Source: a virus. Taken from it: a DNA stretch of 29,587 bases. The notes beneath the pieces were generated by a model, which ran no database searches, had not been told where the DNA came from, and worked only from the letters and a program-made list of their open reading frames with translations. The position numbers and the translations under genes were made by a program. The stretch spans positions 1 through 29,587 of IMG/VR virus record IMGVR_UViG_3300033995_000688. One strand, written 5' to 3'. How positions within the stretch are numbered: position 1 is the stretch's first letter; every line of letters starts with the position of its first letter. Of this stretch, positions 9,753 through 17,682 are shown one piece after another.

Positions 9753-11198
9753 TTATACTGCACCCCACCCACCGCCACGACCGACCAGCTCGTCGTAGGC
9801 GTCAGTCAAAGCGTCGACGATGTCGTCATTCTTCCCCAGAGGAAAGGTTCGCATTTCGTCCAAGAGTTCGCGATTCCACGAAGCTGCGACCATGTAGACA
9901 TTGCCACCAGCGACCTGAGATGCGAACGGTTCAGCCCTGACATCCTTCGCACCGGTCACCGGCAGGACTGTCACAGCACTACCATGCAACAGCCGAAGCA
10001 TGTGCATCGCTTGACTCTTGCCAGCCTGGCCCGGGTCCTGCGGTAATCGAATCCTGATGCCACGACCATCAAGAGCAGCTGTCTGCTTGATAACTTTATC
10101 GCGTTGGTCGGTGTCATACTGGCCACGCACGACATCGAGGATCCAGATACGGCCATCAGCATCGCGTCCCATTTTGACACCGACCGTGAAGTCACCACTT
10201 CCAGCTGTCGCTGCAAGGTCCCAGGCGCGGGACATCTTCGCACAGTTTGGCATGGCGCTCTCGATGACAATCCGATCTGACTTGAAGAACGAACCCTCAC
10301 GAGGTGTTGGATGTTGCTGGTACAAAGCACTCCACCCATAGTCGCCGCTGTTGGCAACCATGACCTCTTTGATGCGTCCGAGCTCCTTGACGTCGTACCG
10401 TTCTGGCCACAAAGCTTCGCCAGGCATTCGACCGATCTGGTCCTTCTCCTCCGCGATGGCTGGAAGGTTTAGCACGGTCCATCGATGAGGTTCCGAACTG
10501 ATTGCGCGAGCGGTGATGTCATCGTGATGCCACCTGGTCGAGACAATGATGAGAGCGCCCTTCGGTTCGAGGCGCGTGTATAGATCGTCGGTGTACCAGT
10601 CCCATGCTTTGTCGCGGTATAGAGAAGATTCAGCATCCTCGCGACTCCTGATCGGGTCATCGATGATGATGCGCTTGAAGCCGACACCGGTTGGAGGAGA
10701 ACCGACACCACGCGCCATGAAGGTTCCGCCCTCCGGCAGTGACCACTCATCCTGTGCCGCGTTGTCCTTCGAGAGTTTAGTCCTGGACGAAACGATCTGT
10801 CTGGACTTCCTCGAAAAGCGTCTCGCGATGCGCTCGTTGTAGCCAGTGACCAAGACGTTTGCTGACGGATCTCTCTCGATGCAATAGGCGCCATATCGCA
10901 CGGTCACTGTCTCAGTCTTACCGTGGCGCGGCGGCATGTGGATCGCGAGTCGGTCGATCTCACCACGCTCCACAGCGTCAAGGTGTGAAGCGATAGCGAT
11001 GAGGTGCCGAGCTGTAAAGGACCAGCCATTCGGGAGAGTCTCTCGAAGGTAGTCGAGATAACAGAGAGCTGTCTGCGCGCTAGTTGTTGTCCTGGCTTGG
11101 TTCGGCTGCGGCGGAGAGAAGTTGTATCGAGAAGTTCGCAATGCGCTCATGGAGAGCTGCAATTTGGGCAGCTGATTGGCCATTGATGTAACGCTCAC
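9753..11198 (-). CDS. terL: Terminase large subunit (DNA packaging ATPase/nuclease)
   Basis: Numbered from GTG 11198 (481 residues). Walker A is PPRHGKTE (89-96), Walker B RIIIDD (176-181) and the coupling motif LIIVSTRWH (216-224). The RNase H-fold nuclease shows RAWDLAAT (D327), LPQDPGQAGK (385-394) and KNDDIVDA (456-463). It drives DNA into the prohead and cuts concatemers. The true start is uncertain: GTG 11198, ATG 11183 or ATG 11150 all lie inside the small-subunit gene and none has a clear ribosome site, so the N-terminal 16 residues may be absent. Coupling to the small subunit overlap is evident. Confidence 0.94.
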   Translation of the reverse strand: MSVTSMANQLPKLQLSMSALRTSRYNFSPPQPNQARTTTSAQTALCYLDYLRETLPNGWSFTARHLIAIASHLDAVERGEIDRLAIHMPPRHGKTETVTVRYGAYCIERDPSANVLVTGYNERIARRFSRKSRQIVSSRTKLSKDNAAQDEWSLPEGGTFMARGVGSPPTGVGFKRIIIDDPIRSREDAESSLYRDKAWDWYTDDLYTRLEPKGALIIVSTRWHHDDITARAISSEPHRWTVLNLPAIAEEKDQIGRMPGEALWPERYDVKELGRIKEVMVANSGDYGWSALYQQHPTPREGSFFKSDRIVIESAMPNCAKMSRAWDLAATAGSGDFTVGVKMGRDADGRIWILDVVRGQYDTDQRDKVIKQTAALDGRGIRIRLPQDPGQAGKSQAMHMLRLLHGSAVTVLPVTGAKDVRAEPFASQVAGGNVYMVAASWNRELLDEMRTFPLGKNDDIVDALTDAYDELVGRGGGWGAV

Positions 11199-11469
11199 TC
11201 TGCGCTGTACGTGCTATCGCCTGTAGCGCCTTTAGGCTGTCCTCGAGCACTGATGTCAGAAGATCATCGAGAGACTTTGTCGGGAGAATCGTCGTGGTGA
11301 TGTCATGTCGACTCTGTTCGACAGGAGTCGTCATTCTGTCCCTGATCGAGATGATGGTCGTGCGTGGTAATCCACACGACCGTGCAATGACCGAAGGGCT
11401 TTGACCAGCGATCAAAGCCGATTCGACCTGTGCGAGAATCTCAGGTTCTGTTGTATTACCTCTTGCCAT
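11080..11469 (-). CDS. Probable terminase small subunit (HTH DNA-binding)
   Basis: A 129-residue protein if it starts at ATG 11469. Residues about 10-45 form a helix-turn-helix (ILAQVESALIAGQSPSVIAR, SCGLPRTTIISIRDRM), followed by a helical oligomerisation region (TSVLEDSLKALQAIARTAQS, AAQIAALHERIANFSIQLLS). Small terminases recognise the packaging site and load the large subunit. The gene directly precedes terL and overlaps it by up to about 119 bases. AGGA lies close to the ATG. An upstream ATG at 11487 is possible but poorly spaced. Family identity is inferred from position and architecture. Confidence 0.7.
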   Translation of the reverse strand: MARGNTTEPEILAQVESALIAGQSPSVIARSCGLPRTTIISIRDRMTTPVEQSRHDITTTILPTKSLDDLLTSVLEDSLKALQAIARTAQSERYINGQSAAQIAALHERIANFSIQLLSAAAEPSQDNN

Positions 11470-11473
11470 GATC

Positions 11474-11830
11474 CTATTCTGTCTCATCCTGGCGCACTCT
11501 GCGCCTGTAGTGCAGCTGCCCGTGGCATAAGTAGCACAGGACCTGCACATCCTCCATCAGCTCACCACCGAGTCTGATGTAGGTGATGTGATGTACATCG
11601 AGCTTGTAGCCGTCATCCTGTCGACGGCCACACTGCTCACATGTCCTACCTGACCGCTCGAGCGCCTTGGTCCGGATGTCCTGCCAGCGCTGACTCCGCA
11701 TGTACTTGCGACGGTAGTCGCGCCATGCTTCGTCGACCTGGTCGCCGGACGCTCCGATGGCCTTGAGCAGACTGTAGGTGTTAGACCATGGCTTCGCCAT
11801 GATGCTCTTTACGATGTTGTCCGTGTCCAT
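11474..11830 (-). CDS. HNH endonuclease next to terminase
   Basis: A 118-residue protein with a complete HNH site: CEQC (64-67), LDVHHITYIRLGGE (78-90) and VLCYLCH (97-103). Phages with long cohesive-end packaging often encode an HNH protein beside TerS/TerL that is needed for cos cleavage, and the location here matches. It shares the motif HHxTYxRLxxE and the lead-in R-W-x(5-8)-A-x-x-R with the HNH protein at 19635-20297, so the two are probably related. ATG 11830 overlaps the upstream gene by 22 bases (GGATGAG upstream). ATG 11800 with AAAGAG upstream is an alternative. Confidence 0.85.
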   Translation of the reverse strand: MDTDNIVKSIMAKPWSNTYSLLKAIGASGDQVDEAWRDYRRKYMRSQRWQDIRTKALERSGRTCEQCGRRQDDGYKLDVHHITYIRLGGELMEDVQVLCYLCHGQLHYRRRVRQDETE

Positions 11831-12054
11831 ATGATCTCATCCTTGACCGGGTGATCTTCGCCCCACATCCAGTCAGTCGCGAAAAGCGACTCAGGATCGA
11901 GTGTGAGACCTTGTAGAGTCTTCGACTCAGGTCCGGTGTGCATGACGAATGCTTCGTACAAATCGGAATATCGGATGTACACATCATGATCGAAGCATGC
12001 GCGTGTGATCGGTTTACCGTGCATCAAGTGTTGTATTACTTCAGAGAACTTCAT
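11809..12054 (-). CDS. Small Tad2-like (DUF2829) protein
   Basis: An 81-residue protein. It starts MKFSEVIQHLMHGKPITR and has LDPESLFATDWMW at about 55-67. F-S-x-x-h-x-x-L-x-x-G-K-x-h-x-R followed by L-x-x-x-D/S-L-h-A-x-D-W is the signature of the DUF2829 / Thoeris anti-defence 2 (Tad2) family, whose studied members sequester cyclic ADP-ribose-type immune signals. The start is fixed at 12054 by ATGA overlap with the upstream gene, which ends in the same kind of domain. Length is slightly below typical Tad2. Whether it binds any nucleotide is unknown. Confidence 0.65.
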   Translation of the reverse strand: MKFSEVIQHLMHGKPITRACFDHDVYIRYSDLYEAFVMHTGPESKTLQGLTLDPESLFATDWMWGEDHPVKDEIIWTRTTS

Positions 12055-12623
12055 TCGATCACCGTCCAATCTCGCGCCAGGACATCATTGCCTGATAATG
12101 TTGCAAACCCCTTGCATCGCCAAACATTCGCACCATCGAGCTCGTATCGCATCAATGCAGATTCGACCAGCTGAAGCTTGAAACGAGCGCCTTCACGCCA
12201 CACAGGACGTCCTGCGCGCACGTCTACAAGGATTTGTTCAAAACTCTTGCGACCACCCCAATTGTTTTGTTTCTTCCCGATACATTCTTGGAACTCAATC
12301 CGCAGTGAAGGTTCGCTCATCATCCATCGATTTATCATCATGACCGGATAACCGACGACGTCGGCTGCTTTGCTTCGGGTCTCACCGCTTGCGATGAGCT
12401 CCGCCCACTTGATAACGGTCGCGGTCTTTTCATCGAGCGAAATGTACGGATCCATTTTCTTGACTGGCCTGTCTGGAGTTTCTTCCCTGATCCATCGATG
12501 CAATGTCTTCTCTGACATATCCATAATCTCAGCTGTGCGTCGTATGTTGTGACCAGCAGCTCTCAGATCTTTGATTCGCACCATGAGGAGTTTCCGCTCC
12601 TCAATGCTTGTATTCTTCGACAT
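12051..12623 (-). CDS. Double HTH protein fused to a Tad2-like (DUF2829) domain
   Basis: A 190-residue protein. HTH 1 is at about 25-45 (HNIRRTAEIMDMSEKTLHRW) and HTH 2 at about 82-101 (TRSKAADVVGYPVMMINRW). Residues about 125-190 (KSFEQILVDVRAGRPVWREG ... LSGNDVLARDWTVIE) match the DUF2829/Tad2 pattern of an N-terminal FxxhLxxhxxGxxhxR and C-terminal DhLAxDWxVhE. I know this domain usually as a stand-alone protein; coupling to a DNA-binding module suggests sensing plus regulation. ATG 12623 has a strong site (GAAGGGGAG). It sits between the SSB-like gene terminator and the packaging genes. Confidence 0.7.
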   Translation of the reverse strand: MSKNTSIEERKLLMVRIKDLRAAGHNIRRTAEIMDMSEKTLHRWIREETPDRPVKKMDPYISLDEKTATVIKWAELIASGETRSKAADVVGYPVMMINRWMMSEPSLRIEFQECIGKKQNNWGGRKSFEQILVDVRAGRPVWREGARFKLQLVESALMRYELDGANVWRCKGFATLSGNDVLARDWTVIE

Positions 12624-12642
12624 TGATTCTCCCCTTCAAAGT

Positions 12643-12679
12643 AAAAGACCAGGCACACCGTTCGGATAGTGCGCCTGGT
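12643..12679 (-). terminator. Terminator after the SSB-like gene
   Basis: On the minus strand ACCAGGC (12679-12673) pairs with GCCTGGT (12654-12648), extended by a three-pair inner stem (12671-12669 with 12058-type mate 12658-12656) across one mismatch. TCTTTT follows from 12648. It lies 32 bases past the stop of the SSB-like gene and separates the replication genes from the Tad2/terminase operon. No strong promoter was seen between it and the next start, so it is likely partial. Confidence 0.7.
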
Positions 12680-15962: not shown

Positions 15963-16298
15963 GTACTTGCATGTCGCTTCGACTGCTTCGTCCCAGGAAT
16001 ATGCAACGAACCACAGGTAAGCATCACCAACAGATTCACGAAACGCGATCTGTCCTGATGTCAGTTTGTTCTTGCCCGCCTTCATTTCAATCCACATGCC
16101 GCAGTGCTGCCCCATCTGCACCGGGATGAAGATGTCCCAAACGCCCGCCTTGAGTCCTTCGGACTTCATGCGGCCACCTGTGGCCTTGCTTCGATAGCCG
16201 CCATTCGGCACAGCAAAGATTGTGCCTAGGCGCGAATCACTTCCCGCCATGACTCGGCACCAGTTGAAATATGCGATCTGCTGTTCTGACTCGGTCAT
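15936..16298 (-). CDS. VRR-NUC domain nuclease
   Basis: A 120-residue protein, the usual size of stand-alone phage VRR-NUC enzymes (PD-(D/E)xK superfamily). The motifs are E4 and Q7 at the start (TESEQQIAYFNWC), FAVPNGGYRSKATGGRMKSEGLKAGVWDIFIP with D55, then GMWIEMKAGKNKLTSGQ with E71-x-K73 and Q83. It is expected to cut branched or structured DNA in recombination or resolution before packaging. ATG 16298 overlaps the sigma-factor stop as ATGA. Its 3' end overlaps the convergent DUF3310 gene. Confidence 0.9.
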   Translation of the reverse strand: MTESEQQIAYFNWCRVMAGSDSRLGTIFAVPNGGYRSKATGGRMKSEGLKAGVWDIFIPVQMGQHCGMWIEMKAGKNKLTSGQIAFRESVGDAYLWFVAYSWDEAVEATCKYLGIASGIN

Positions 16299-17203
16299 AG
16301 TTCCATCCTCTCGAAAATCTGCGCCAGGACATCAGCCCCAGCAGCCACCCGAAGTTTGTCGATTGCGCGCACCTGAATCTGTCTGATGCGCTCGCGACTG
16401 TAGCCGATCAGGATTCCAACATCCTCGAGTGAGCGACCATCCGACAGACCATCGAAGCCGAAGCGAAGGCGAAGACATGCAATCTCTCGATCTGTGAGGA
16501 CCTCCATGACCGTGCGCAGCTGCGCGTAGAGGATCTCTTTGTCGAGGTGATCACCGACTGGCGGCTCATTCGATGCCATGAAGTCGTAGCGACTTTGACC
16601 GTATGCGTTCGGTTCATCGATGCTCGAGACCAGCTTCACATCGTGCTGAAGGATCTCTGTCAGCGACTTGACATCGAGTGATTCAATCTGCTTGTGAAGG
16701 TATCGCGGGTAAGTGTGCACGACCTCACGGACGTACGCAAGCAGTTCCGCCGGTGTTGGAGTCTCACCGTGCTTGACGATGTACTCCTGTCGCGAGACTC
16801 TGATGTGCGACAGTTTAGCGATGGCGTGTGACGGTAATCTGATGTCTCGACCACGGCTCTCGATGCCGCGACCGATAGCCTGGCGGACCCAGTTGGTCGC
16901 GTAGGTGCTGAAGCGGTGACCGAGTGACGGGTCATAGCGCTGGACCGCGTGGTGTAGTCCGAGCATGCCATCCGTTAGCATGTCCTCGTGTTCGCATCCA
17001 CGGCCCCTGAACTTTTTGGCGATTGCGCTGACCATGCGGACGTTGTGATTGACGAACTCAGCAGTCGCTTTGTCTTTGTCACGCTGGACACCACTCTGGA
17101 CCATGCGTCCGAGAAAGAACTCCTCCTCGGGCGTCAGGAGTCCAGTGGTGCTCGTGCGTCTACTGCCCCGATACTGTGACCATGTTGTGATGGCGTCAGT
17201 CAC
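16295..17203 (-). CDS. Sigma-70 family RNA polymerase sigma factor
   Basis: A 302-residue protein from GTG 17203, which overlaps the upstream stop by eight bases; the frame is open further but the 108 extra residues are low-complexity shadow. Region 2 spans about 49-120 (EFVNHNVRMVSAIAKKFRGR, EHEDMLTDGMLGLHHAVQRY, FSTYATNWVRQAIGRGIES). A region 3-like helix set follows (IRLPSHAIAKLSH). Region 4 is at about 236-287 (LTDREIACLRLRFGFDG, SLEDVGILIGYSRERIRQIQ). Regions 2 to 4 are those of a primary or group-2 sigma, not an ECF. It probably redirects host polymerase to phage promoters, most likely those of the structural genes, which lack obvious sigma-70 sites. Confidence 0.9.
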   Translation of the reverse strand: MTDAITTWSQYRGSRRTSTTGLLTPEEEFFLGRMVQSGVQRDKDKATAEFVNHNVRMVSAIAKKFRGRGCEHEDMLTDGMLGLHHAVQRYDPSLGHRFSTYATNWVRQAIGRGIESRGRDIRLPSHAIAKLSHIRVSRQEYIVKHGETPTPAELLAYVREVVHTYPRYLHKQIESLDVKSLTEILQHDVKLVSSIDEPNAYGQSRYDFMASNEPPVGDHLDKEILYAQLRTVMEVLTDREIACLRLRFGFDGLSDGRSLEDVGILIGYSRERIRQIQVRAIDKLRVAAGADVLAQIFERMEL

Positions 17204-17465
17204 GAGCTTGCATCGCCTGATGTGCACGGTGATCCGGACTGTTCGGAGTGTTCCAGTCGGACGCCATTGCGCATGCTGTCCACACAGCCAGGACAACCAC
17301 GACGAAGCTGCCGACCATCTGGATGCGGCGCTGTGTCCGGAGGCGGCGCTCACGCTTGAGCTCACGCTGTGAGCAGATGTCACAGATGCGATGTCCACGA
17401 CCATAAGGCACCGCGTTCGTGCGATGGCATTCGATGCATGTAAGTTTGATGTTTCTTGTGTCCAT
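17196..17465 (-). CDS. Zinc-ribbon single-pass membrane protein before the sigma factor
   Basis: An 89-residue protein. C10-x-x-C13 (LTCIECHRT) and C28-x-x-C31 (RICDICSQ) make a zinc ribbon. A very basic stretch (RELKRERRLRTQRR, 34-47) leads into one membrane helix at about 51-67 (GSFVVVVLAVWTACAM), so the ribbon should face the cytoplasm. ATG 17465 is preceded by AGGACTAGGAC. The stop lies inside the sigma gene start (eight-base overlap), so the two are made together. An anti-sigma or polymerase-tethering role is an inference from coupling and topology. I know no exact family. Confidence 0.65.
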   Translation of the reverse strand: MDTRNIKLTCIECHRTNAVPYGRGHRICDICSQRELKRERRLRTQRRIQMVGSFVVVVLAVWTACAMASDWNTPNSPDHRAHQAMQARD

Positions 17466-17484
17466 TGTCCTAGTCCTATTCTGT

Positions 17485-17682
17485 CTATTGCGGAAGAGTC
17501 TGTCCTGTACGCTTGCACAGGATCCACAGCTGCACTTCGTATTCACTGCGACCGATAGCATCAGCGATGCGCTTGACGGTCGACTGTCTGACAGCATGAG
17601 CGCCGGAGAGCATCCGACACACTGCCGATTTGTGGATGCCGAGTTTCTCAGCGATATCCACCTGTGTATGTCCGTAAATCAT
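17485..17682 (-). CDS. Cro/CI-like HTH regulator, probably leaderless
   Basis: A 65-residue protein from ATG 17682. The HTH is HTQVDIAEKLGIHKSAVCRM (about 5-24), followed by STVKRIADAIGRSEYEVQLW, a normal HTH_3/Cro ending. It has no C-terminal dimerisation/cleavage domain. The start is chosen because the overlapping -10 (TATAAC 17694-17689) ends six bases before this ATG; an upstream TTG at 17718 would lie inside the -35. It probably binds the palindrome 17701-17719 and regulates both its own promoter and the rightward operon. Confidence 0.8.
   Translation of the reverse strand: MIYGHTQVDIAEKLGIHKSAVCRMLSGAHAVRQSTVKRIADAIGRSEYEVQLWILCKRTGQTLPQ

Follow-up and report, generated by a model that had tools for sequence, protein, structure and literature searches.

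A conserved phage gene pair encoding a double helix-turn-helix protein with a C-terminal Tad2-like domain and a stand-alone Tad2-like protein

At the head of a packaging operon, an uncultured phage carries two adjacent genes, A and B. Protein A is composed of two helix-turn-helix (HTH) domains and a C-terminal domain homologous to Tad2, and protein B is a stand-alone Tad2-like protein. A and B are a core pair in this group of uncultured phages, and the Tad2-like end of A is held while its DNA-reading end diverges. The arrangement is tentatively read as a DNA-binding regulator built around a Tad2-like module.

Gene order and domain composition

The window, the whole stretch of DNA analysed, is a virus record of 29,587 bases. 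The head, portal, and terminase genes lie on its minus strand, and its plus strand carries a divergent operon with an Erf-like annealing protein and ThyX. The operon headed by A is sequentially composed of A, B, an HNH gene, a putative TerS, and TerL, along with head genes (Table 1). Gene A starts at an ATG behind a GGGGAG, and the ATG of gene B at 12054 overlaps the stop codon of A in an ATGA. Both open reading frames (ORFs) lie where the first-pass annotation had placed them, and the pair sits, as it had proposed, upstream of the packaging genes, directly before the HNH gene, the putative TerS, and TerL. The HNH gene overlaps the end of gene B. The start given for the putative TerS is a predicted one, its listed ORF beginning at 11550. 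The window also encodes a sigma-70-like factor (16295-17527), whose regions 2 and 4 both score over the Pfam cut-off.

Table 1. Coordinates of features in the window and in related loci (L numbers)
Feature	Position	Strand	Basis
Gene A, double HTH with C-terminal Tad2-like domain, 190 aa	12051..12623	-	ORF; HTH_23 over cut-off
HTH1, about residues 17-46	12486..12575	-	Pfam HTH_23 17-46; AlphaFold helices 7-22, 27-33, 38-48
HTH2, about residues 63-103	12315..12437	-	AlphaFold helices 63-78, 83-90, 94-103; pLDDT about 80-90
Tad2-like domain of A, residues 125-190	12054..12251	-	Profile-profile matches, decoy-tested profile scores; below Pfam cut-off
Gene B, stand-alone Tad2-like, 81 aa	11809..12054	-	PF11195 22.7 bits; orthologues over cut-off
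Ribosome-binding site GGGGAG of gene A	12629..12634	-	Read from sequence
Intrinsic-terminator-like hairpin in the leader (12-bp stem, T-rich tail), some 25 nt ahead of A	12648..12679	-	Pattern scan
HNH endonuclease, next after B in operon	11474..11830	-	Pfam HNH 30.9 bits; phrog_119
Putative terminase small subunit	11080..11469	-	Precedes TerL; weak HTH matches; without firm family match
Terminase large subunit	9753..11198	-	phrog_38 E 1e-90
Three-HTH versions of A	L043:4899-5621, L053:1569-2291, L057:107-817, L092:4941-5663
Tad2-like genes between erf and thyX	L007:1070-1330, L013:1045-1338, L022:993-1322, L193:1138-1386, L197:1110-1343, L199:1131-1364, L202:985-1257
104-110-aa protein	L013:734-1048, L193:827-1141, L199:1361-1693		L013 copy: no PF11195 match in Pfam
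PF11195 fusions in bacterial genomes	L214:1450-2394 (Phage_gp49_66), L215:1402-2262 (DUF7823)

Gene A matches Pfam HTH_23 with 32.2 bits (cut-off 24.6) in two stretches, the best of which coincides with HTH1. The place of the second stretch is not printed by Pfam, and the bounds of HTH2 are taken from the AlphaFold model, in which A contains two three-helix units. The Pfam match and the two modelled units bear out the two HTH motifs noticed earlier in A. In four contigs, A is 236-240 residues long and contains an apparent third tandem HTH unit at its front. The HTH part also resembles the small-terminase type of HTH (phrog_3218, E 0.006), and the small terminase of phage G20c appears among the rows of a fold search with A, with a Z of 6.0 but an rmsd of 8.8.

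The AlphaFold models, calculated from alignments of 34 and 38 sequences, are good for the HTH domains and of low confidence for residues 125-190 of A; the mean pLDDT of B is 47. A helix-then-strands order is predicted, at low confidence, for residues 128-175 of A and for B. The rows of the fold search with A span residues 3-60 and thus cover the HTH part only. In a second search with A, the best row is a 176-residue viral protein (E 7e-4) with low TM-scores, and the remaining rows are largely HTH proteins and endonucleases. The search with the low-confidence B model returned nothing significant (best E 0.59). Owing to the low confidence of the models in the Tad2-like parts, the fold searches reached only the HTH part of A and nothing for B, and the absence of Tad2 among the rows shown is uninformative either way.

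Homology of the Tad2-like domains

Gene B aligns with positions 1-71 of the 73 positions of PF11195 (E 1.5e-4), its 22.7 bits lying just below the 25-bit cut-off. Four B or B2 relatives were scanned. Three of them pass, with 30.1, 29.9, and 27.5 bits, and one, with 23.6 bits, does not; the two highest scores belong to the B orthologues L107_B and L050_B, respectively. HHalign of B plus B2 against a set of outside domains only aligns 28 columns with a P of 2.2e-6 and a score of 35.6 (shuffled maximum 22.8). The separate 81-residue Tad2-like copy recognized by the first-pass annotation is retained on this whole-profile match, B being classified as a Tad2-like domain through its orthologues. A search of PDB sequences with the B profile gave four matches up to E 10, none of them significant: a xylanase (0.24), SptTad2 (0.34), an entry named 'inhibitor of type II CRISPR-Cas' (0.6), and DinI (0.61). 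The six PDB matches of the A profile are all in or near the HTH part.

The C-terminus of A misses the PF11195 cut-off of 25 bits, with 12.8 bits over 14 residues. Among three relatives of A scanned, L097 scores 14.5 bits over positions 2-73, L083 scores 12.9 bits in a partial match, and L100 has no match. In 35 related records, the frame taken as A by its place matches PF11195 end to end in 8 (10.4-12.8 bits) and partially in 6. A home-made profile was built from 23 stand-alone Tad2-like proteins, with A excluded. Against this profile, 49 distinct C-termini of A score 8.8-18.6 bits, with a median of 13.9. The maximum of 5000 shuffled decoys (4897 scored) is 9.3; two decoys reach the lowest A score and none the median. 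Of 5318 scored 'other' ORFs among the distinct ORFs of the loci, so labelled by a crude pattern, 40 score at or above an A median of 10.9 bits; on sorting by eye, these 40 are whole or fragmentary proteins of the Tad2-like or A type.

Profile-profile comparison extends the match over the whole domain. HHalign of the A domain against the stand-alone Tad2-like set covers 64 columns with a P of 1.6e-7 and a score of 39.5, and the best of 200 column-shuffled controls scores 18.9. HTH1 and HTH2 do not match the same set. Against seven domains from outside the group, including SPO1 Tad2, the A domain aligns over 63 columns with a P of 3.4e-5 and a score of 29.0 (best of 100 shuffles, 16.2). The comparisons with smaller in-group subsets are borderline or weak: B alone or B2 alone gives a P of 0.0019 and a probability of 14%, B plus B2 gives a P of 0.0011, and the in-group early and gap genes alone give a score of 24.3 over 21 columns (shuffled maximum 23.5). 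The homology is thus settled only by the pooled set and the outside set. On these two alignments, residues 125-190 of A are assigned as homologous to PF11195 end to end, and A is named Tad2-like through this homology rather than filed as a Pfam member. The earlier proposal of a Tad2-like domain at the end of A therefore holds at the profile-profile level and falls short of the cut-off in a plain PF11195 search.

The likeness to Tad2 could instead be a product of chance, or of convergence on a short F..L..G..R / DW motif. The low Pfam score, the L100 protein without a PF11195 match, the low-confidence structure, and the borderline or weak in-group comparisons are in keeping with such an origin. 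However, the alignment with the outside domains runs end to end and exceeds all 100 shuffles, and the 49 C-termini stand apart from the decoys. The decoys and both HHalign controls thus reject chance and convergence, which we regard as very improbable.

B and the Tad2-like domain of A share with the PF11195 family (SPO1 Tad2, SptTad2, MoTad2, and AcrIIA7) a conserved N-terminal helix, an arginine behind it, and a DW near the C-terminus. The copy in A differs in its place behind two HTH domains and in scoring under the family cut-off. Both copies are also shorter, with about 63-66 residues compared to 89 in SPO1 Tad2, or about 20 fewer. Tad2 is described as a tetramer of V-shaped dimers, in which the gcADPR pockets are formed by loops of different protomers, and the studied protein as binding cyclic dinucleotides through an insertion between strands (PMC12043709). 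The stretch of that insertion is a gap in the alignments of both A and B. In addition, the tryptophan of the Tad2 'GWNGK' loop is absent in A, and B-type proteins have W or F at this position. The weight given to this tryptophan is drawn from a review in which the loop between the first strands is mentioned; its loss suggests that A may have lost the Tad2-type pocket. The missing insertion in A and B, together with the missing tryptophan in A, argues against a plain sponge.

Pairing, selection, and the leader

Relatives were collected from IMG/VR as 66 loci for A, the best 80 of 82 for B, the best 80 of 99 for the A alignment, and 24 loci for a 187-residue type of A. These sets overlap, many loci being the same contigs, and identical stretches were removed for the counts. 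Where the search with A yielded a locus extending 1300 nt or more downstream, B and the HNH gene are present (all 64 distinct loci); where the search with B yielded one extending 1500 nt or more upstream, A is present (all 42 distinct loci). With the loci of both searches pooled, the counts are 70/70 and 56/56. The pairing seen in the window is therefore general among these loci. No relative of A was found among cultured phages at E 0.01, and the 187-residue type has one weak match (E 0.1), in a Microcystis phage. Eighteen pattern matches in genome contigs include no relative of A.

A directly adjoins B in 59 of the 75 distinct A-B sequences. The intervening stretch contains one gene of B2 length in 8 of these sequences, one other Tad2-like gene in 5, two genes in 1 (L185), and an ORF without a Tad2-like match in 2. 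One of two B2 genes scanned passes the PF11195 cut-off, the L108 type of in-between gene scores 21.6 bits, and the L104 type has no Pfam match; in-between genes without a Pfam match are called Tad2-like by the home-made profile (22-27 bits). The two genes of L185 lie in tandem (L185:8546-9072) and score 27.2 and 25.2 bits with the home-made profile; against PF11195, one gives a partial match of 12.0 bits and the other none. If both count, L185 would contain four Tad2-like domains in series. A possible, very divergent Tad2-like gene lies between the HNH and small terminase genes in another locus (L111:6581-6934; 12.2 bits with the home-made profile, no Pfam match).

Further Tad2-like genes occur between erf and thyX. 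One or two are present in 11 of 24 distinct sequences and none in 13, window included; this tally counts genes of at least 9 bits with the home-made profile, which some of them helped to build, and excludes stretches fetched by a match. The best of the genes at this site, in G020, reaches 36.1 bits against PF11195. In the window, erf and thyX overlap by 4 nt, with no Tad2-like gene between them. One Tad2-like family is found at both sites, early in L197, L199, and L200 and between A and B in L108. All of 35 chosen records have a PF11195 match at E <=1, and 17 of them have one over the cut-off. The extra Tad2-like genes come and go among relatives, unlike the fixed A and B. Beside early Tad2-like genes, a protein of 104-110 residues (MKFELAFEAMRHGYCITVQ...) recurs, which is borderline by the home-made profile.

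Outside genomes were searched in two phylum samples; PF11195 occurs in 4 of 398 genomes in one and in 2 of 395 in the other, counting the seed genome each time. Ten places were found, and proteins from five of them were scanned with Pfam: one is fused to Phage_gp49_66, one to DUF7823, and none to an HTH. The first-pass description of DUF2829/Tad2 domains as usually stand-alone is thus fair but not absolute, two of the five scanned places being fusions. The genome with the DUF7823 fusion (G333) has five PF11195 places.

Selection differs along protein A. Median dN/dS values (Nei-Gojobori, same-length pairs of 75-99% identity) are 0.165 for the whole of A, 0.10 for its Tad2-like domain, 0.14 for HTH2, 0.38 for HTH1 (residues 1-55), and 0.09 for B. 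Purifying selection is strongest on B and on the Tad2-like domain of A, and HTH1 evolves fastest. Four relatives of 187-189 residues share 67-73% identity with the window in the Tad2-like domain, 20-22% in HTH1, and 32% in HTH2; for L083, the corresponding values are 77, 26, and 47%. Together with the versions containing an apparent third HTH unit, these values indicate that the DNA-reading end of A drifts or is swapped while the Tad2-like end is held. A held Tad2-like end with a drifting HTH1 fits a sensor or assembly unit better than a fast arms-race sponge.

For small-terminase types, HTH1 classes I and II compare as 5:8 and 12:18, with no difference seen, so that tracking of the small-terminase class by HTH1 is not observed between these two classes. 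Class IV, with 12 window-like and 5 other types, and the three-HTH class, with 0 and 3, do differ, but both sets are small.

The leader upstream of A contains a hairpin with a T-rich tail. A pattern scan for such elements found 2 sites against 2.3 expected by chance and is thus no better than chance. The stem is kept in 15 leaders chosen from 45 distinct ones, with 4 of 12 pairs changed on both sides, and the element resembles a terminator or attenuator separating the replication genes from the operon that A heads. Ahead of the hairpin lies an inverted repeat, CAGCGAGT...ACTCGCTG, whose right arm is invariant in the 15 aligned leaders though non-coding. Of 14 distinct leaders sharing one exact 23-nt end, three, each 88 nt long, are letter-identical between phages of HTH1 classes I and II. 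The leader is therefore probably not the site of HTH1, and we do not favour a model in which A regulates itself there through HTH1. HTH2 could bind there.

Possible roles of A and B

Phage sponges hide immune signals, and one-component regulators of transcription combine an HTH with a small-molecule domain to respond to ligands. A shares with the latter an HTH and a potential small-molecule domain, which is its conserved part. It differs in that its candidate sensor comes from a phage sponge family, a use not found in the literature searched. The first-pass suggestion of a signal-responsive regulator or an anti-defence pair would fit the co-occurrence of A and B, the purifying selection on the Tad2-like parts, and the place before the HNH gene, TerS, and TerL.

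The reading we favour, at somewhat less than even confidence, is that A regulates by binding DNA and that its Tad2-like domain either binds an effector or forms an assembly with B. It is favoured by the constant pairing of A with B, their coupling, the place of A in front of the packaging genes, and the conservation of the Tad2-like end, and is supported by an HTH over the Pfam cut-off, two well-modelled HTH units, and a C-terminus homologous to Tad2. The low-confidence models of that C-terminus and of B, the lack of the GWNGK tryptophan in A, and the leaders shared across HTH1 classes count against it. A would be an oligomeric phage regulator with both HTH domains on DNA, and its C-terminal domain would serve as an effector-binding and assembly module. 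B would be a separate copy of this type of domain, its synthesis tied to that of A through translational coupling, and would either join A in a mixed Tad2-type assembly or compete for its ligand. The ligand or the A:B ratio would then alter the DNA binding of A and thereby the expression of the A-headed operon or of another phage site. In this scheme, we infer the DNA binding of A, its ligand, the contact between A and B, and the regulated site.

A counter-defence role ranks close behind and is possible, if doubtful. A would be a self-repressing protein: its Tad2-like domain would act with B against a host defence, either by sponging up nucleotides or as an anti-CRISPR, and its HTH part would lower A-B expression. 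PF11195 includes Thoeris sponges, and the anti-CRISPR AcrIIA7 is described as having this domain too (PMC6739104). Autorepressors with an HTH and an anti-defence function are established. AcrIIA15 is reported to contain both parts in one protein and to repress its own promoter (PMC10901769); AcrIF24 is likewise reported to repress its own promoter, and AcrIIA1 and AcrIIA13-15 are named alongside it as HTH anti-defence proteins (PMC9001735). A similarly joins HTH units to a domain from a family with anti-defence members. It differs from these proteins in having two HTH units, apparently three in some relatives, a Tad2-like domain, a free copy downstream, and a place at the head of a packaging operon. 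The further Tad2-like genes that some relatives have between A and B also favour this role. However, both genes are fixed in the group and highly conserved, unlike accessory anti-defence genes, the operon headed by A carries packaging genes, and the domains of A and B are without the insertion of the studied Tad2. As for an autorepressor's operator, the inverted repeats of the leader are conserved, yet three leaders are common to different HTH1 classes, and HTH1 does not track the leader.

We consider it unlikely that the Tad2-like domains serve oligomerization only, with A as a DNA-binding accessory of the packaging operon or of late-gene control, B as its partner, and no small-molecule ligand. 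The fixed place beside the HNH and terminase genes and the HTH type that also occurs in small terminases (phrog_3218 and the G20c fold row) are consistent with it, and the diversification of HTH1 would match a packaging or operator site that shifts. A adjoins the packaging genes and has a similar type of HTH, but a putative small terminase and an HNH protein are present separately, and none of the packaging proteins examined has a Tad2-like domain. HTH1 classes I and II are alike in small-terminase types, and a packaging role leaves unexplained why the same family stands alone in the separate erf-thyX operon of relatives.

More speculatively, and within the regulator reading, A might sense an immune nucleotide of the host, or a related signal derived from NAD or a nucleotide, and switch the phage's packaging or late operon or its counter-defence genes. 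B would be a tunable decoy in the assembly, and the nearby Tad2-like genes would be exchangeable sponges. We hold this full scheme to be rather unlikely as it stands. An HTH-Tad2 fusion was not found in the titles and abstract openings of the open-licence papers searched. With a domain family and a type of layout that are both known, the fusion counts as a variant, and a sensor role would be new. If true, the Tad2 sponge fold would have been turned into a phage sensor: DNA-binding domains and a sponge-type domain in one conserved protein would let a phage read an immune signal and respond to it. The A-B pair and the variable Tad2-like genes at two sites provide natural variants for ligand questions outside Thoeris and CBASS.
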